Shown piece after piece: positions 6,081-51,842 of a stretch of 64,000 bases of DNA. Each line of letters begins with the position of its first letter. The first letter of the stretch is position 1. The notes under the pieces were generated by a model. It was not told where the DNA came from. It ran no database searches and saw only the letters and a program-made list of their open reading frames with translations. This DNA comes from Sternotherus odoratus. Its lineage: Eukaryota; Chordata; Testudines; Kinosternidae. The position numbers were made by a program, and so were the translations under genes. The DNA lies in NCBI GenBank assembly GCA_032164245.1, contig JAVMKO010000002.1, forward strand, positions 97,043,340 to 97,107,339, read 5' to 3'.

Positions 6081-6364
6081 GGGTTTGCCACAGTGCTGTA
6101 ATGTGCATCACAGTGGTGTAAAGAACAAAGTGCCTTAAAGTGCTGGATTCTAACTGCCCCTATGTAGACCCTTCTGATGTGGTCTGAAAGGTCCCTAGTG
6201 AACATTAAGGGTATGTCTTCACTACAGCAGTAGGTCGATTTCCTTTAATTCAATTTTGTAAAGCAGACTGTATACAGTCGATTTTGTGTGTCTTCACTAA
6301 GCACAGCAAAGCACAGCAAGTCGACAGTGTCTGTCCACACAACTTTTGCAAGCGTCGACATAAT

Positions 6365-6555
6365 GAGCGTTGTACTGTGGGTACCTATCCCACAGTTCCC
6401 GGATCCCCCAGCAGGCACCATTTCGAGTGCTGCACTATGGGTAGGCATTTCCAAATTTCGCGCCCTTTTTCCACGCCGCCGACCCCCATTACGAGCGGTG
6501 CACTGTGGGTAGGCATCCCATAATTCGCGCCCTTTCTCCGCGCCGCGCTAACGCC
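6365..6555 (+). repeat. Left subterminal tandem repeats of the Harbinger element
   Basis: Three diverged units of roughly 60 bp, each with a gtgcactgtgggtaggc-like core (near 6369, 6428 and 6497). In the last two, sequence like ttcgcgccctttttccacgc follows. Position between the terminus and the transposase start fits binding or promoter sites, but that role is inferred. Confidence 0.6.
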
Positions 6556-6569
6556 ATAGCACTGCAAGC

Positions 6570-7838
6570 ATGGAGCCCGCTGACACCACGGAAACAGTAA
6601 TGGCCATTGTGAACCGTCTGCAGAGGAATGCGATCCGGGGACAACTGCGCTTTCTGGAACCCGACGACAGTGAGGAGGAGATGGACCAGGACGTGCACAG
6701 CAGAGACAGGGACAGTGACGTTTTTGGAAGTAGGGCGACTGACAATCTGTCTAATTTGGTGGCAATGGGGCAGGCTCACGCCATCGAATGCCGATTCTGG
6801 GCCAGGGAAACAAGCACGGACTGGTGGGATCGCATAGTGCTGCGGGTCTGGGATGACTCCCAGTGGCTCAGAAACTTCCACATGCGAAAGGGCACGTTCA
6901 TGGAACTTTGTGACTTGCTGTCCCCGGCCCTCCGGCGCGAGAATACCAAAATGAGAGCGGCCCTCACAGTTGAGAAGCGAGTGGCAATAGCCCTCTGGAA
7001 GCTTGCAATGCCAGACAGCTACTGGTCAGTCGCGAATCAGTTTGGGGTGGGTAGGTCTACAGTGGGCTTTGCTGTGATGCAAGTAAGCAGGGCAATCGTC
7101 GAGCAGCTGCTACACCGGATTATAAACCTCGGAAACCTGCAAGCTACAATAGATGGCTTTGCCGCCATGGGATTCCCTAACTGTGGTGGGGCTATAGATG
7201 GGACTCATATCCCTATCCTGGCACCGGACTACGAGGCCGCCGAGTACAGAAACCGGAAGGGATATTATTCAATGGTCATGCAAGCAGTGGTTGACCACAA
7301 GGGACGTTTCACCGACCTGTACGTGGGGTGGCCGGGAAAGCTTCATGACGCTCGAGTGTTCAGGAACTCTAGGATTTTTAGACAGCTGCAGCAAGGCACT
7401 TTCTTCCCCGACCAGAAAATTTCCATGGGTGTGTGTGTGTGGAAATGCCGATCGTTATCATTGGGGACCCAGCCTACCCCCTAATGCCCTGGCTTATGAA
7501 GCCCTACACAGGAGCCCTGGACAGGGGTCAGGAGCTGTTCAATTACAGGCTGAGCAAGTGCATTTGGCCATCTGAAGGGGAGATGGCGTTCCTTACTGAT
7601 TCGCTCAGACATCAGCAAGAGAAATATCCCCATTGTTATTGCTTCTTGCTCTGTGCTCCACAATCTCTGTGAGAGCAAGGGGGAAACGTTTATGGCGGGC
7701 TGGGAGGCAGAGGCAAATTTACTGTCTGCTACTTACCAGCAGCCAGACAGCAGGGAAAGTAGAAGAGCGCACCATGAGGCCCTGCGCCTCAGGGACGCCT
7801 TGAAAGACAGTTTTATGAGTGCCCGACATGGTGTTTGA
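6570..7838 (+). pseudogene. PIF/Harbinger DDE transposase, frameshifted
   Basis: HARBI1-like transposase. From the ATG at 6570 the first frame runs 304 codons. It has an acidic N-terminal region, a helix-rich segment around residues 130-190, then IDGTHIPILAP with D210 and GWPGKLHDARVF with D260, the first two DDE catalytic acids. After a GT run at 7429-7440 the homologous sequence moves to another frame (VIIGDPAYP, then PWLMKPYTG). Near 7555-7562 it returns to the first frame at FGHLKGRWR and ends at 7838. The family's third acidic residue normally sits just before the FG.LK.RW motif; that stretch is missing, so a deletion of about 20 bp is inferred. AATAAA follows at 7918. Catalysis should be impossible. 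Confidence 0.9.
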
Positions 7839-7917
7839 GAACCTGCTCCCTTGCTGTGCTCTAAGCCTGATGTCCTTGAACCCTCTTTCCCTACCCCCTC
7901 CCCATGCTTGCAGAGGA

Positions 7918-7923
7918 AATAAA
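7918..7923 (+). terminator. Poly(A) signal of the transposase gene
   Basis: AATAAA 80 bp after the transposase stop on the plus strand. It faces the minus-strand signal at 7950-7955, as in convergent genes. Confidence 0.55.
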
Positions 7924-7949
7924 TTCACTGTTTGAAAAATCATGGTTCC

Positions 7950-7955
7950 TTTATT
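7950..7955 (-). terminator. Poly(A) signal of the Myb/SANT gene
   Basis: AATAAA on the minus strand, about 145 bp beyond the stop codon of the minus-strand gene at 8100. Confidence 0.5.
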
Positions 7956-8099
7956 GGTTCATCAGAAATACAAATACAGGGGATCACTGTCATGGTAGCC
8001 TGGAGGGAAACCAGCAGTCGCACTGGGGGAGGAGCGGACAGAGGGTGGGGGAAGGGGGGAAAGGAGGGGAGGCCAAGACACAGCAGCTTTTAAAAGTTT

Positions 8100-10246
8100 T
8101 CAGAGAATGTCAGCCTGCTGCTGCTGCTGCTCCTGCTTCTGCTGGCTTGTGGGGTGGAGTGGGTCGGTCCACGGAGCTTGCCCCCCCCGTGTTCTCACCC
8201 CGCGTTTGGGTGGGGAAGCTATGGGACTTGGGGGGGGGAGGTGGTTAGACAGGGGCTGCAGAGGTGATCTTTGGCCCTGCTGCAGCTCCACCAGAGATCG
8301 CAGCATGTTGCTTTGGTCCTCCATTATCCGGATCAAAGCATCCATGCGTCTTTCTTCGCGGTCCTGTCGCTGCAGCCACATTTCTTCCCTCTTTTCTGCT
8401 GCGGCTCTCGATTCCTGCCTGTCTCGATCCCTTGCCTGTATCTCTCGATCCCTTGCCTCTATCAATCTTTCCCTCCATTCCGTCTGGCGGGCTGCCTCAG
8501 CGCGCGAGTTCTCCAGGAGTTCACTGAACATATCATCGCGCGTTCGCGTTTTCTTTTCACGCTTTCGTATCAGCGATGCACGGCGGGAGGAGCAGGACGG
8601 GGGATTCTGAGATAATTGTTCATCTGTGGGCGAATGTGGGCAAAGAAAGTTTGAAAGTTATGAGACAGATACATTCAAGGTTAGGAGGCAGATGCAGTCT
8701 CGGATGGTACACAATGGGAGTACTATGCCGTTTGCAACCTCAGTATTCAGAGGCCTGATATGATTTCTGTACAAGGTCATGTTCTACACCTAAAAGTGAC
8801 TGAATAGCTCACAGAAAAGTCAGAGCATCTCAGACACATATGCGTGCCTCAGCCCAACACGGCTTCTGAAAGCACCGTGCAGCCGGCCATGGTAAGTTAA
8901 AAGCAGCACTTGCATATTGTAGAGTAACCCCACCTCCTTCCCCCCACCGCGTGGCTCCCACTGAACCGCAAACTGCAAAACAAAGGCAAAAAAATCTCTC
9001 GCTAAGGGCTAAGGGCTGGTTGGGGCTCTTCAGACCGCTTGCAGACTGTTCAGATTCCCTGCTAGCTACCGCTACGGGCTGGAGGAGGGTGGGGGGGTGA
9101 GCGTTTGGGGGGGGCGGTTGGTCGGTCCTCAGCAGAAAAGAGTACTTTGCAGCTGGGAATCTTTATCTCCCTACTAATTGCAGTCCGTATTTCAAACAGG
9201 CAGCCATGAATGACATCACTTTGCTGAGAATTTCTCAGAGAGATAGAGAGCGCATGCTCCTTGCCTCCATGCAAAGTCCTGGTCCGTTCGCCGCAATGCT
9301 AGCCTGCTCCATGATACCAGACTACTTACTACTTTCGTGGCGTGGGATGGTCTCCTATCACGGGGGACCACAGAAGGTGGCTCTCCCCAGAAATCTGCTG
9401 CGGAAGATTCATCGCTACCTCCTGGATAGCTTCATTGAAATGTCCGCGGAGGACTTCCGGTCAATCCCGGAGTATATTGACAAACTCTTTGAGTAGAAAT
9501 TGACCAGCAATGAAAGCACGCTAAGTCCTTAGGGCAAGTTACTCATTAATAAATGCTTCCTTTAAAAAATCACGCGTCATGTAATCCCTTAAAAAGAAAC
9601 ACTTACCCCCCTGGGAGGCTTGGGATGGTGCTGGCTGCAGGGTGATAAACAGCTCCTGGCTGTCTGGTAACACGGTTTCTCCGCTGGCCTCCTGCTGCTC
9701 CGTGAAATTTCCCTCCTCCTCATGGTCGTCCTCATCGGAATCAGTCTCCTCCCTGACGATTATCCCATCGGTGGAGTCCACGCAGACCGGTGCGATGGTG
9801 GTGGGGGCGCCCCCCATTATCTGATTTAGTTCATTGTAGAACCGGCATGTCCGCGGCGCGCCCCCTGATCGTCCGTTTGCCTCCTTGGCTTTCTGGAACG
9901 CTTGCCTCAGCTCCTTAATTTTCACGTGGCATTGCTGGGCGTCCCTGTTGTGGCCCCTTTCCATCATGGCCTTGGAGACTCTTCCATACGTGTTGGCATT
10001 CCGTTTGTTGTTGCGTAGTTCCAACATCACGGATTCCTCTCCCCAGATAGCGATGAGATCCAACACTTCACGAGTGGACCATGCTGGAGCTCTTCTCCTC
10101 TGGCTGGTCTCCAGGGCAGCTGAGCTCTGCATGGAGTCTTGTGATGCTGAGCTCTGCATGGCGGCTTGTGCTGCTGATTGCTCTGAATGGCGACTGAGCT
10201 GTTCAGGTGAGCTGGCCACGCTGACCAAACAGGAAATGGTATTCAA
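8100..10246 (-). CDS. Harbinger Myb/SANT-like DNA-binding protein, two exons
   Basis: Partner protein of the transposase, expected to bind element ends and help nuclear import. Exon 1 is 10246-9607 and exon 2 is 8623-8100. The intron (9606-8624) starts GTAAGT and ends CCCACAG. Joining in phase 1 gives 1,164 nt, exactly 387 codons plus stop. Residues 52-145 resemble a trihelix/Myb domain with RRRAPAWSTREVLDLIAIW, QQCHVKIKELRQAFQKAKEA and CRFYNELNQIMGG. An acidic linker (DSDEDDHEEE) follows. Exon 2 encodes an Arg/Glu-rich segment likely to be coiled-coil, then a proline stretch and a Gln-rich tail. I see no stop or frameshift, unlike the neighbouring transposase. The start chosen is the first ATG of the open frame; an upstream exon cannot be excluded. 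Confidence 0.8.
9206..9496 (+). CDS. Unidentified 96-residue frame inside the partner-gene intron
   Basis: I do not recognise this protein. It runs MNDITLLRISQRDRERMLL... to ...SAEDFRSIPEYIDKLFE. It looks soluble and partly helical, with basic and acidic stretches, and lacks a signal peptide or zinc-binding pattern. The ATG has a fair context (gcagccATGa), and an in-frame TGA lies upstream at 9098-9100. Possible splice acceptors lie just before it (ctactaattgcag ending at 9182, and a caaacag shortly after), so it could be a last exon. AATAAA follows at 9548-9553, 52 bp past the stop. It lies entirely in the minus-strand gene's intron, so it is not a shadow of that coding sequence. It could be a third gene of this Harbinger family, a captured host exon, or a chance frame. 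Confidence 0.5.
   Translation: MNDITLLRISQRDRERMLLASMQSPGPFAAMLACSMIPDYLLLSWRGMVSYHGGPQKVALPRNLLRKIHRYLLDSFIEMSAEDFRSIPEYIDKLFE
9548..9553 (+). terminator. Poly(A) signal after the unidentified frame
   Basis: AATAAA on the plus strand, 52 bp after the stop of the 96-codon frame. It could also be chance in AT-rich sequence. Confidence 0.35.
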
Positions 10247-10300
10247 ATGTTCCCGGGTCTTCTCCTATCTACTTGGCCAGAGCAGCGAGTTCAGAGTGCT

Positions 10301-10370
10301 GTCCAGAGCGGTCACAGTGGAGCAGTGAGGCAGTCCAGAGCGGTCAGAATGGAGCATTGTGGGACAGCCT
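10301..10370 (+). repeat. Right subterminal tandem repeat of the Harbinger element
   Basis: Two units with a 32-bp period, each starting gtccagagcggtcaga or a close variant and ending in gtggagcagtg or atggagcattgtggg. They share a gca(c/t)tgtggg core with the repeats at the left end, consistent with common binding sites. Confidence 0.55.
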
Positions 10371-10745
10371 CTGGAGGCTATTAATGTTGGTTGCGTCTTC
10401 ACCAGCCCACAATCGACCTTGGAATGTCGATTTCAGCCTTACTTCTCTCATTTTGGAGGAGTACAAAAGTCGATTTTGAGGGCCCTTTAAATCGACTTTA
10501 AGGGCATGTATGTGAAGACAGGTACACGTTTAATTCGACTTAACGTCGTTAAAGTCGAATTAAAGTTGCAGTGAAGACATTATATAGTACTGTTCAAAAC
10601 AGGGCTACATCAGGGTACATTAGGTATTTTTTTGAGTATGTCAGCAGGGGCTATGTGGGGCACCTAGAGTGCAACACTTTAGAGTGTTCTACAATTTACA
10701 CCCCACTGGTTCATATTGCTGCACTCTGGGGTAGACAAGCCCTTA

Positions 10746-31079: not shown

Positions 31080-31463
31080 ATCCTGCTCAGCCAGTAGCTG
31101 AATCTTTCCTTGGTTCTGTCTAGGTGGCCAGTGTATGGTTTCATGAGCCAGAGAAACAAGGTGTAGACTGGATCACTCTTGGAATTTCAACCCTACCAAT
31201 GTGAAAGTGACAGTTGGAGAGGATTGCCTCCCCTTCTCCAGCTTTTGGAAAAGTCCTGTGTTCTTAAAGATGCATGCATCATGCATCTTCCCTGACCAGC
31301 CCACATGAATATCAGTGAAGTGTCCCTTTCTGGTTATGTATTCAGTGGCAAGGATGGGTGCTACCAGAGTAGGGATGCGTGTCTTGTCACTTGCCACACC
31401 CATCATTTGTGAACCCATTGCTTCAAATCTATCTACTTTTTCCTGTGTGTTGTCAAGTGTCAC
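31080..31463 (-). pseudogene. Harbinger transposase fragment
   Basis: On the minus strand the frame has FEAMGSQMMGVASDKTRIP, then RKGHFTDIHVGWSGKMHDA. These match the D210 and D260 regions of the transposase at 6570-7838. Downstream, in another frame, WLMKPYTGHLDRT can be read. The block between EYITRK and GHFTD is shorter than in the other copy. In the first catalytic motif IDGTH has become SDKTR, so glycine and histidine are lost. Confidence 0.75.
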
Positions 31464-33065: not shown

Positions 33066-34895
33066 CCGGCATGACGACTCACCTCTGTGGTGCCTCCTGC
33101 TGGTAGTCCAGGAATTAGCTCTTTCCAGCTCCAGAGCGCCCTCTGAAGGCTGATGTCCCGCTTGCCACTGGCCCCATGTCCCGTCCAGACCCCAGTGCCC
33201 TCTTACCTGGGTTGCTGCCGCCTGGCAGTACCCCCACACTCTGCCTCTGAGTCTCCCCTTCCTGGGGAACTCCCAACCACTATCCCCACCTAGCCTCAGT
33301 CTGTGACTACGGCCAGTCAGCAATGAGCCCCTGTTCCTTGGGGCAGACTGCAGTGTAAGAACCAGTCATCATAGGCAAAGGGGTTTTGGCCTGGTGCCTT
33401 TCCTCGAAACCCAGTACCTTGGTGGGCCTTGGATGAGGCCCTGCAGCCTGTGGAGTTGCCGGCCTGGAGCTCCCCAGCTCCTCTGGCCTTTCCCCAGCCC
33501 TGCTTCACTCCCAGTACCCTTTCTGCAGGCAGACAGGACCTGCTCCCTCCAAGACTGGAAAGAGACTCCATGAATGCCTGGCTCACAGACCTTCTATAAG
33601 AGCCAGTTATGGTCTGTTTGGGGCGTGGCCCCAGCTGTGCCTGCTTCCCCAATCAGCCTGCGAGCTGCTTGCCCTCAACACCTTTTGGGTACCCGAGAAG
33701 TGGGCGGGCCTAAGCCCGCCCGTTACTAAAGTCCCTCCCCCAGCCTGGCGGGAGGGACACTAGACCCGGGGCCAACTAAATAGGGGGGACAACTAATGAA
33801 AAAAAGGCAGGGGAGTGCGTGAACGTCATAGGTTCAAAACGAGGGTACAGGATGGGGACCCTGAGCAGAGAACCCCGCACAGCGCCCACTGCTCTGCGAA
33901 GCTGTCGAGGGAGCCAGTGGACGCTGCCCAGTGGAACTCTGCCCGGATGCGTGACTGGATAAGTGACCAGAGGTAGGCCCCACAGTCGCAGCGGACCCCC
34001 TCGTCTAGCATCCTCCTCCTGGTCTTGTATATGGCGACTTTAGCAAGTGCCAGGAGGAGGTTGACGAGGAGGTCTCGCGACTTTGTGGGGCCACGGATGG
34101 GGTGCCCAAAAAGAAATAGGTGAGGGGAAAAGTGCAGCCAGAACCTCAAGAGGAAGTTCTGGAGGAGCCGGAATAGGGGCTGCCGCCTGGCGCACTCGAG
34201 GTGGGCGTATGCCAGGTCCTCCCTCATGCCGCAGAAGGGACAGGTGTCGGGCACGGGGAGGAACCGCGCCAAGTACACGCCCGTGCTCACGGCTCCGTGA
34301 AGGAACCGCCAACTAATATCCCCGGAGGGCCGTGGAATTAAGGTCGAGTAGAAGCTGGCCCACCGGGGCTTCTCACTCTCTGCCGGTGTTAAGTAGTCCC
34401 GCCACTTGGTATCGGGGCAGGACACGAGGGTGAGGAGATGAATCATGTGGAGCACGAGCATGTATAGCTGCTTCCTCGGCGCGGTTCGAAACGAGACCGG
34501 CTGCAAGGTGTGCAGCCGGCTCGGGGTGTGGGAGTGGGGAGGCCTGGAGGGTTCACGAAGCCGGGGCCCAAGTACTAATTCCGGAGGGCCCGGGGTGAGG
34601 GGTGGGTGGGGAGAACCCTCTCGCAGGGCCCACCGCAGGAAACCGAGAGAGGCGGGAGACAGAGCAGTCCTCACCTCCTGGAGTACCCGCAGGGGGGTCA
34701 CGAGGGTGGAGAGCCCCATGCACCGAGCGAGCGCACGGGGATCCGCCCAGTCCCCCCCGTCGTAGTCCAGGAGGTCTCCGACTTTGGTGATTTCCGCCAG
34801 GACCAACCTCCGGCGCATCGAGGGAGACTCCGCCACCTGCATGCTTGCCCTCAACAGGGCTGTTTTAACCCCTTCAGGGTTGGAGCAGGTAACCA
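33066..34895 (-). mobile_element. 5'-truncated Tx1-like LINE
   Basis: Minus-strand non-LTR retrotransposon remnant. It has the C-terminal part of ORF2 (33826 to about 34890) followed by a GC-rich sequence to about 33066 that I take as the 3' untranslated region. The 3' boundary and target duplications are not clear. The assignment to the Tx1/L1 group rests on the style of the C-terminal domain and is moderate. Confidence 0.5.
33826..34890 (-). pseudogene. Tx1-like ORF2 C-terminal domain (partial)
   Basis: An open frame of about 355 codons without a stop. Motifs in order: SWRFLHGAVSTGVYLARFL, then CPFCGMREDLAYAHLEC. This C-x2-C...H-x-x-C pattern is that of the zinc-binding domain found after the reverse transcriptase in Tx1/L1- and I-type LINEs (zf-RVT). 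The endonuclease and reverse transcriptase are missing because the copy is 5'-truncated near 34890. The 360-codon frame is long for dead sequence and suggests a fairly young insertion. The ATG at 34908 lies in flanking sequence or is fortuitous. The C-terminus (CTLVLNL) ends at TGA, 33826-33828. Confidence 0.65.
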
Positions 34896-47800: not shown

Positions 47801-49336
47801 AGCAGCCATAGACAGTGCACAGGAAGGCTCATTGTGTTAAGTTTAACTAGCCAAACAAGCCACATGTAGGAGGCATCATTTCTTGAAAATAGACATGCTT
47901 CACCGTTGTGACGAAGACAGCTCTGCAGACCACCTGGAAGTGGTTTGGGAACAACTCATAGTCTGTTGACCACACTTTGAAAAGCGATACAACCAAATAG
48001 CTTTGTCTGTCATGATGGCCTCATACTGGAGACAAGAACAATGGAAAAATAAAATTATTCAAATACACAGAATTGTTTTCTACAACATTTGTTTCATGCA
48101 ATGATTATTTTATGTATAAGTGTTTAATGTAATATGATCACAGAAGAATCAGGGAATTATCAATTAGATAACTCAGGTGTTTTGATTCTCAGAGATGCAC
48201 AGCAGCAAAGACTTGATGATTCTCAATATTCTGAAGGGCTAATTACACCAGTGTAGACTGTAAAACAGATTCCTGAAGCTGTCGGAAGAGGATTTGGAGA
48301 GAGAGAGATCTCAGAAAACAAAGAAAACTAAACGTAAAGAAAATGGTTACAGAACATTATGCCCATGGTAGATCTTACTACAGTCTGATTGAAAGAAATA
48401 AGAGGATTACTTGGACCAGATTTGGATGAGAAAAGGGGATCTTTAAAAAAAGACTGGTGGAATATCTGAGGAGAATATCATTTGGAAAATTATATTGTTG
48501 AGTAAAAAATGACACTAAGTTGTTAATAACCCTCTATTTGTATTGGGGCTGTCTGTGGGGGACTGGGCCACACAAATCCAAATTTAATGGATTATTTAAT
48601 ATCTGTAACATGACCAAATCCTGAAATGAATTGAAGCCAGCAGAAATGAGTAGTTTATCTTCTTTCAGTATTTGAGCAGCTCTTTGTAATTTTCACTGCA
48701 ACACTGACTTTCTTAAAGGGCCACTATCTTTGTTATTTAAATGGCCCCAAACTGTTGAACCTGAACTCTGAATTTCCTAATACAGAAGGGTCAGTGAGTG
48801 GCTGGTGTGCCTTCTGATGGCTGGGCATGGCATAGCAACCCCTTCTATGTCACTCTCAGTCAGCTGTTACTCAGGCTTCTTCTGTCTTGTGACTCAGCCC
48901 CCTTTACCTGCTTTCTACCTTTACCTGTTTGCAGCATCTGTTATGGAACTGCACTCTCCAGTCCTCTTTCTCCCTGGAATTTCCTATGCCCATACAACTT
49001 CTCCCTATTTGTTGCTGAGAAGCTTTCTCAGCGTCGCTCCTAGCCTCCAAGGCAGACCCCTGGTTTTCCTGCTCTCCTCTCCCAACATGGCCAGCGCATA
49101 AGATTTCCTTTCTCAGTCCTGCCCTATTGTCCCTGCAGCCCTTGCTTTATAGGAACCACCCGGGGTAGTTCTCCTCAGCTGTGTCTACTCCTTAATTGCC
49201 CATTTCCCATCCATGTCAGAGAATGAGCTAATATGGCTCTCCACTCCCCTTCAAACTGTGGCATTTGCACATGCCATCACACTTAAGTTTCCATTATTTG
49301 AGTTTTTTTCCCTTTTATCGCTCTTGTTTCTGAAAG
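44862..49336. other. No gene seen; one old palindromic repeat trace
   Basis: About 45363-45475 ('gggccaaattcttttctcag...aactaagagaagac') resembles an old, imperfectly palindromic amniote repeat. Otherwise this is AT-rich unique DNA. An 81- and a 98-codon frame near 48800-49100 have no recognisable protein. Confidence 0.4.
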
Positions 49337-49348
49337 GTAATATGCTCT

Positions 49349-51842
49349 TTGGACCTGGCAACACAGGATACGAACAAGTCATGGGGACCCACGCACTGGG
49401 AGAGATGAGTGAGAATGGAGAGAGATTGGTGGATCTATGTACACTTAACAACCTGGCCATAGGAGGCAGCATCTTTCCTCACAAGCGAATCCACAAGAGT
49501 ACCTGGGTATCGCCAGCAGGCACGACAGAAAACCAGATCGACCATGTCTGCATTAGCAAGAAGTTCAGAAGATCCCTGCAGGACGTTAGAGTTAGAAGAG
49601 GAGCAGACGCGGCATCCGACCATCACTTAGTGGTGGCCAGATTGAAGCTGAAGCTGAAGAAGAACTGGATAGACGCATCAGACAGAAGAGCGAAGTACAA
49701 CGTCAGCCTTCTGAAGGACCACAAGACCAAGGAAGATTTTGGACTGATGCTGAAGAATAAGTTTTCAGTACTACAGGATCGGTTTGAGGAAGAGGAAGAC
49801 TGTGTACTCAACAGCTGGCAGAAAGTGAGAGAGACACTTAGATCAGCATGCCAGGAAGTGCTTGGAATCAAGAAACACCAGCAGAAAGAGTGGATCACAG
49901 CAGAGACCTTGACTAAGATAGAAGACAGAAAGAAGAAGAAGGCAGCAGTCAACAACAGCAGGACTAGAGCAGCAAAGGCCAAAGCTCAAAAAGAGTATGC
50001 TGAAGCCCATAGAGCAGTGAAGAGGAATATTAGGGAGGATAAGAGAGACTATGTGGATGGACTGGCAGCAGAAGTGGAGCAGGCAGCATACAGCGGCAAC
50101 ATGAAACAGCTGTACAACACCACCAAGCAACTGTCTGGAAAGTTCAGCAAGCCAGAACGTCCTGTCAAAGACAAGCAGGGAAAGTCTATAACAGGAATAG
50201 AACAACAGATGAACAGATGGGCGGAGCACTTTGAGGAACTCCTGAACAGACCAGCACCACCAAATCCACCAGACATCGACCCAGCCAACGAGGACCTCCC
50301 AATCAATTGCGACAAACCAACCAGAGATGAGATCAGAAAAGCCATCACCATGATGAAGAACAGGAAGGCAGCTGGACCTGATGACATCCCAGCAGAGGCC
50401 CTGAAAGCAGACCTGGATGCTTCAGTGGAAATGCTGTACCCCCTCTTAGAGAAGATATGGGAAGAAGTGATTCCGACAGACTGGAAAGAGGGATACCTCA
50501 TCAAAATCCCCAAGAAAGGAGACCTCAGCAACTGTGCCAACTACAGAGGAATCACACTCCTTTCGGTGCCAGGGAAGGTCTTCAACCGAGTCCTCTTAGA
50601 GAGAATGAAGGATGCCGTCGATCCACAGCTACGAGATGAGCAGGCAGGCTTCCGGCAGAACAGATCATGCACGGACCAGATAGCAACACTCCGCATCATA
50701 GTCGAGCAGTCCATGGAGTGGAACTCCTCGTTGTACATCAACTTTGTTGATTATGAGAAAGCGTTCGATAGCGTGGATCGAGAGACCCTCTGGAAGCTCC
50801 TTCGGCACTACGGCATCCCAGCAAAGGTGGTCAACCTGATCAAGAGCTCATATGACGGCGTACATTGCAGAGTGATCCATGGAGGGCAGCTCACAAACAG
50901 CTTCCAGGCGCGAACTGGAGTCAGACAAGGATGCTTGTTGTCACCATTTCTCTTTCTCCTCGTCATCGATTGGATTATGAAGACATCCACTTACGAGTGC
51001 AGGAACAGAATCCAGTGGACGTTGTGGACCCAGCTCGATGACCTGCACTTTGCCGACGACCTTGCACTCCTTTCGCACAGCAAACAGCAGATGCAAGAGA
51101 AGACCAACGTAGTGGCAGCCACATCATCACAGGTTGGCCTCAACATCCACAAGGACAAGACCAAGATCCTTAAGATCAACTCCATCAGCAGCGACCCAGT
51201 CACACTGAATGGAAGCCCCCTGGAAGAAGTGCAGTCCTTCACCTACCTAGGCAGCATCATCGACCAGCAGGGCGGCACAGACGCAGACATCAAAGCAAGG
51301 ATTGGTAAGGCAAGAGCAGCCTTCTTACAGCTCAAGAACATCTGGAGCTCCAGAGAGCTGTCTTTGGCAATAAAGATTCGACTATTCAACTCCAACGTGA
51401 AATCAGTCCTACTGTATGAAGCTGAAAACTGGAGGATAACCAAAAAAACCACCAGGAAGATCCAGACCTTCATTAACAGCTGCCTCAGAAGGATTCTCCA
51501 GATCCGCTGGCTAGACACCATCAGCAACATCCACCTCTTGGAGAGGACCCGTCAACTCCCAGCAGAGGAAGAAATCAGAAGGAGAAGGTGGGGCTGGATA
51601 GGACACACACTACACAAGCAGCCAACCAACATCAGCAGACAGGCACTGCGGTGGAACCCCTAAGGCAAGCGGAAAAGAGGCCATCCAAGAAACACCCGGC
51701 GACGCGACCTTCAGGCTGACACCACAAAAATGGACTACACCTGGAACCAGCTAGAGAGAATGGCCCAGGATAGAGGACTCTGGAGATCTGTGGTTGGTGG
51801 CCCATACCCCGACTGGGGTGACAGGCATAAGTAAGTAAGTAA
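49349..51842 (+). mobile_element. RTE-like LINE, 5'-truncated, young
   Basis: Flanked by a perfect 12-bp duplication GTAATATGCTCT (49337-49348 and 51843-51854). It has no long 3' untranslated region and ends in an AAGT tandem tail (51829-51842). A very short 3' end with a microsatellite tail is characteristic of RTE-clade LINEs. It is 5'-truncated inside the endonuclease. The reading frame is almost intact and the duplication is exact, so the insertion is recent relative to the other repeats here. Confidence 0.85.
49351..51834 (+). pseudogene. RTE-like endonuclease/reverse transcriptase ORF with one stop
   Basis: Counting from the first in-frame codon inside the element (49351), residues 1-95 are the C-terminal part of an APE-type endonuclease, with [10 protein letters not shown] and SDHH (89-92). 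A Lys/Arg-rich linker follows. The reverse transcriptase has [40 protein letters not shown] and FADD at 567-570 in place of YADD. After FTYLGSII comes a C-terminal domain with [14 protein letters not shown] at 51661-51663 interrupts the frame. Reading on, 56 more codons (PYPDWGDRH near the end) lead to a TAA at 51832-51834 that lies in the AAGT tail. The ATG at 49213 is in flanking DNA. N-terminal endonuclease residues are missing, so the copy cannot be autonomous. Confidence 0.85.

Follow-up and report, generated by a model that had tools for sequence, protein, structure and literature searches.

A probable third gene, antisense in the Myb intron, of a high-copy PIF/Harbinger transposon in the turtle Sternotherus odoratus

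The DNA analysed here (the window) is a stretch of 64,000 nucleotides from Sternotherus odoratus (GenBank assembly GCA_032164245.1, contig JAVMKO010000002.1, positions 97,043,340 to 97,107,339). It contains a PIF/Harbinger element at 6209–10580, without an assigned strand, which is delimited by an inverted repeat, by its left-end sequence and by boundaries common to other copies. A transposase gene of the DDE_Tnp_4 type lies on the plus strand (6570–7838; Pfam PF13359, E 4.7e-17 for 6570–7481), and a partner gene of the Myb/SANT type on the minus strand. The latter consists of exon 1 (9607–10159, with the first ATG at 10159; PF13837, E 7.1e-20), an intron (8624–9606) and exon 2 with the stop codon (8100–8623), which was aligned to the C-terminal part of turtle Myb proteins. 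An earlier note on this DNA had drawn attention to a third open frame, 96 codons followed by TAG at 9206–9496 of the plus strand (9200–9496 if spliced), and had proposed that it is an accessory factor, a captured host exon or a product of chance. Here we argue, at a probability of roughly 0.8 for the explanation as a whole, that this frame serves as the main coding exon of a genuine third gene in a high-copy PIF/Harbinger family; the Myb intron would contain this gene entirely, on the opposite strand.

In its position, the frame is just as the earlier note had described it. It lies wholly within the minus-strand intron, so that it mirrors no coding sequence and an origin as such a mirror was rejected; it is open only from 9101, downstream of an in-frame stop (131 aa from stop to stop). 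Candidate splice acceptors are found just ahead of it, at 9183 and 9199, and an AATAAA, the proposed polyadenylation signal, follows 52 bp past the stop codon at 9548–9553 of the plus strand. The length of the frame is not by itself beyond chance: ATG frames of at least 96 codons, on either strand, arose in 142 of 1000 dinucleotide shuffles of the Myb intron. In a codon-usage score built on a human codon table, the frame ranked fifth among the 116 window frames of at least 60 codons, behind the transposase, the Myb gene, a reverse transcriptase frame and one frame without assignment. What sets it beyond chance is its conservation rather than its length.

Homology searches with the third protein yielded two full-length relatives in Chelonia mydas, in addition to many copies in S. 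odoratus. These emerged when the 96 residues of the third protein (P0001) were searched a second time, with longer target proteins allowed and E values up to 1; two of nine candidates were relatives, both from Chelonia. P0122 (349 aa, named Zinc finger and SCAN domain-containing protein 20) matched at E 2.9e-33 with 67% identity, and P0123 (UY3_00640, 172 aa) at E 1.8e-27 with 59%. Both alignments cover the whole protein, starting at the first methionine and ending at the final residue, with a single three-residue gap in P0123. The two residues before the methionine are V-T in both relatives and A-A in the window, and the preceding Q, which overlaps the acceptor, is present in P0123 too. Unlike the window protein, the relatives are gene models whose N-terminal parts differ: Myb and transposase pieces are present in P0122, while P0123 probably holds a second, partial copy of the third protein, as its residues 3–33 resemble the C-terminal half (3 of 5000 shuffles score equally).

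As judged from these alignments, the changes between the window frame and its Chelonia relatives are far more conservative than neutral ones. A neutral simulation was run 2000 times from the window DNA to matching protein divergence. The mean BLOSUM62 score at changed sites was 0.19 for P0122 and 0.16 for P0123, compared with simulated values of −0.68 and −0.69, and the observed means were reached by only three and one of the 2000 runs respectively; under four other mutation settings they were reached by 0–7 of 1000 runs. The share of changes that need at least two base changes likewise lay above the simulations (reached by 9/2000 and 67/2000 runs). Simulated frames stayed open in 497 and 371 of the 2000 runs, before insertions and deletions are counted; openness is a biased form of evidence because the relatives were found as annotated proteins, the kind of change being less affected.

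It is here that one has to consider whether the frame is open merely by chance, in an intron that is young and has mutated little. Such an origin would agree with the equally long frames of the shuffled introns, and with an among-copy ratio (see below) that is not significantly below 1, but an accidental frame would not be matched in another genome by full-length relatives that share its protein ends and differ by conservative replacements. We therefore regard chance as very improbable. Among the three origins that the earlier note had left open, chance is contradicted by the Chelonia relatives, whereas a gene of the element is supported. That the element carries the frame as a genuine, conserved gene appears highly probable from these comparisons, and its residence there follows from its many genome copies and from a Chelonia gene model in which it is joined to Harbinger parts.

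To describe the copies in S. odoratus, we searched the 1.76 Gb genome with P0001 and scored the best 150 of 6210 first-look candidates. These matches, the window copy included, were 92–100% identical and nearly all full-length (two end at residue 94 or 95), and a stop codon was present in 4 of the 150; they are unusable for selection tests because they were chosen by likeness to the third protein. When the first 30 loci were cut out, one was the window copy and the other 29 came with surrounding Harbinger sequence, their main matches being 87.6–97.6% identical. In 20 of these 29, 9034–9105 was matched twice, as if tandemly duplicated; it is matched once in the window. A sample independent of the frame was taken from a transposase search (130 scored of 13499 first-look candidates), namely 40 of the 129 other copies, at transposase ranks 2–42 without rank 37. 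The third frame was covered fully in 33 of these copies and partially in three, and was absent from the stretch taken in four; 27 of the 33 fully covered frames were intact and six broken. Copies without the frame, or with unselected stops in it, would according to the earlier note have spoken against a gene, and for the most part they were not what we found. The noncoding parts of the copies differ by ∼2–4% from their majority, and the thousands of candidates look like the product of a large, recent burst.

An omega-like ratio was determined among the 33 fully covered copies and the window copy, with the expectation taken from rates in the noncoding part of the intron. The third frame showed 120 nonsynonymous changes against 218 expected, 78 synonymous against 72, and four stops against 10. 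The resulting ratio was 0.51; part of Myb exon 1 gave 0.65, and the intron, read as codons, 0.93. These values speak only weakly for constraint on the third frame. The dN/dS comparison among family copies that the earlier note had called for is only suggestive, the ratio of 0.51 having a wide bootstrap interval that includes 1.

A two-exon structure for the third gene is suggested by signals further upstream. Its start codon would be the ATG at 8889–8891 of the plus strand, at the very end of exon 1; the proposed intron (8892–9199, plus strand) begins with the donor GTAAGT at 8892, carries the branch-site motif TACTAAT at 9172–9178, ∼22 bases ahead of the acceptor, and ends with the acceptor AAACAG at 9199. 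Joining 8891 to 9200 gives an in-frame ATG GCA GCC ATG AAT, and the exon 1 frame has a stop upstream with no start between that stop and 8889. By scores weighted with splice-site frequencies, the donor ATG|GTAAGT belongs to the 13 highest-scoring of the window's 6656 GT sites (top 0.2%), while the acceptor is ordinary (top 8.5% of AG sites). Given donor 8892, acceptor 9199 and the AATAAA at 9548, the whole two-exon gene would fit in the Myb intron. This model is only suggestive: a donor of equal strength with an in-frame ATG also turned up in 117 of 5000 shuffles, or 608 of 5000 when the donor threshold was relaxed, and in 39 of 3428 real stretches, and the model was arrived at post hoc. Its signals are retained in the copies: the ATG at 8889 in 29/29 similarity-picked copies and in both transposase-picked copies whose stretch reaches it, the donor in 28/29 copies, the acceptor AG in 34/35 transposase-picked and 29/29 similarity-picked copies, and the AATAAA in 33/34 and 29/29 respectively.

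The layout of P0122 raises the question of whether the third frame is a gene of its own. This model starts with a Myb domain, passes into the 5′ end of the transposase and ends with the third protein; its transposase piece is 44% identical to the window element over 57 positions, and its Myb part 46% over 157. Since P0122 leads from the transposase 5′ end directly into VTMNDITLL, and since transposase and third frame follow each other in this same order on one strand of the window, the third frame could instead serve the transposase gene as an alternative 3′ exon, with transposase 5′ coding sequence spliced to the acceptor at 9199 to yield a fusion protein. Against this, the Myb part of P0122 corresponds to the other strand of the window, for which reason P0122 is probably a chimera of gene prediction. 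Moreover, those donors of the transposase region that score above 6 reach only 6.2–8.0, compared with 10.4 at 8892, and the retention in the copies of both the ATG just past the acceptor and the one at 8889 suits a separate start. We consider such a fusion unlikely, and a separate third gene remains our preferred interpretation.

The association of P0122 with Harbinger parts bears equally on a captured host gene or exon that the element has carried along and amplified, but that does nothing for the element. Antisense nesting with its own splice and polyadenylation signals is indeed what an inserted gene would look like, and PIF/Harbinger elements are described as having two genes only in the portions of the literature that we drew on (PMC4482050, PMC9710019). 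Yet our protein searches, within their length ranges and word sensitivity, turned up no related host protein, the Chelonia relative P0122 sits with Harbinger parts, and conservative change at 59–67% identity argues for continued use rather than for a passenger. Capture thus appears as improbable as fusion. A nested transposon insertion was provisionally rejected as well: in the inverted-repeat scan, the only pairs listed that reach into the intron are short (16–22 nt, e.g. I2 and I6) and do not flank it, and such an insertion is further disfavoured because P0122 accompanies Harbinger parts. Our preference is again for a third gene that belongs to the element.

The third protein, about 99 aa if spliced, would have a mass of about 11 kDa and a pI of 7.9. 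The earlier note had not recognised it, and database searches agree: P0001 had no match in Pfam up to E 10 or in NCBIfam up to E 1, and an alignment profile of the protein retrieved nothing better than E 2.2 from PDB sequences. AlphaFold models were poor and mostly helical (mean pLDDT 45.3 alone, 49.3 with three sequences). No relatives were detected in a viral contig collection with P0001, the transposase or the protein alignment, nor in a genome contig collection with P0001 or the protein alignment. A likeness of the protein start to KRAB, and of LPRNLL to F-box starts, was considered and dropped, Pfam showing no match of this kind. An NCBIfam secretion-effector model hit P0122 in its Myb and transposase part (E 0.00034, 18.8 bits where the cut-off is 1000); this hit was taken as chance.

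Several observations weigh against a third gene. The first protein search, limited to targets of about 53–168 aa, returned no relatives of the third protein, and the second only two, compared with 200 for the Myb protein, whose best relatives are turtle proteins (identity up to 60–61% among the 120 of 200 matches listed) and whose search indicates that turtle proteins are well represented in the protein database. Both relatives of the third protein come from gene models of Chelonia, and P0122, at least, looks like a chimera. No family, PDB match or confident fold backs any function. Partial or missing frames make up three and four of the 40 transposase-picked copies, and 27 intact frames among 33 were judged unsurprising for neutral copies so young. 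When the among-copy ratio was bootstrapped without the window copy, the third frame ranged from 0.25 to 1.53, with 32 of 300 replicates at or above 1 (intron control, 0.50–2.04), and the distinct variants comprise 66 nonsynonymous to 26 synonymous changes, a ratio of 2.5 that is near the expected neutral value of ∼3.0 and that young copies would show if most of their changes were private and neutral. The splice model was found only after looking. The retention of its signals adds little, because other noncoding words of the same length are retained as well, from 10 of 307 for the acceptor word in transposase-picked copies to 231 of 593 for the acceptor word in similarity-picked copies.

The assignment of the element itself rests on several features. 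An inverted-repeat scan of the window paired the terminal inverted repeats at 6213–6241 and 10552–10580, although the outermost right-end bases of the window copy differ from those of other copies. The left-most match fell at 6205–6211 in 25 of 29 other transposase-picked loci, and the right-most at 10579 or 10580 in 26 of 29 other similarity-picked loci. PIF/Harbinger elements duplicate a three-base target, TWA. Of the two element copies compared at both flanks, one has TTA on both sides and the other does not; in the window copy, TAA stands at the left, and the right end is altered. The transposase frame of the window copy shifts once within 7382–7484 and again within 7554–7672, whereas transposase frames of other copies in the genome are open for up to 448 aa. 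By the splice-site scores used above, the Myb intron has a strong donor, GGG|GTAAGT at 9606 (top 0.5% of window GT sites), and an acceptor ending at 8624; exon 2 can be aligned to the C-terminal part of some of the turtle Myb proteins compared.

Elsewhere in the window, 31084–31174 (minus strand) matches the transposase part 7466–7556 at 69% over 91 bases and is perhaps another Harbinger fragment. A retrotransposon is represented at 49213–51660 (plus strand) by an 816-aa open frame with RVT_1 (E 1.5e-36) and DUF6451. A 338-codon open frame at 33829–34842 (minus strand) has a strong three-base periodicity (9.2) and no Pfam match at E 0.001.

With its DDE_Tnp_4 transposase, Myb/SANT partner gene and terminal inverted repeats, the element shares the hallmarks of PIF/Harbinger, which is described as a two-gene system of transposase and Myb/SANT protein in the parts of PMC9710019 and PMC4482050 used here. 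It departs from that description in a third conserved frame, located on the other strand within the Myb intron. We take this frame to extend the description rather than to exclude membership, because transposase and Myb gene are both present. A parallel exists in the ISL2EU group of the PHIS superfamily, which according to part of PMC4482050 also has an extra frame beside a related transposase; unlike in ISL2EU, the third protein of the window element has no recognised domain and is added to Myb. No third Harbinger gene was described among the literature matches listed, Repbase entries and subscription journals lying outside that search. The element itself is filed as PIF/Harbinger.

What the third protein might do can be framed by the known pair. 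As reported in the consulted part of PMC9710019, both proteins of the rice and zebrafish PIF elements are required for transposition, in zebrafish the transposase is bound by the Myb-like protein and depends on it for nuclear localization, and the transposase–Myb pair has been co-domesticated repeatedly. The third gene, opposite in strand to Myb and on the same strand as the transposase, would give rise to a spliced transcript of two exons, the first of which ends with the start codon, and hence to a protein of ∼99 aa. This protein might assist the transposase–Myb complex in assembly or nuclear entry, or might protect the element from host silencing; for a small protein under constraint, a role as an accessory of transposition or as such a shield seems the most likely, but the proposal is tentative. 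It is equally tentative to propose that turtle PIF/Harbinger elements carry a third gene, essential or at least useful to them, that lies antisense in the Myb intron and founds a protein family without known relatives.

If true, a conserved third gene would give the transposition machinery a new component, or the element a defence against its host, and it would be a compact example of one transposon gene lying antisense within an intron of another. Surveys of domesticated Harbinger genes should then include the third protein. As an accessory of the complex or an anti-silencing factor, this protein could help to explain the high copy number of the family.
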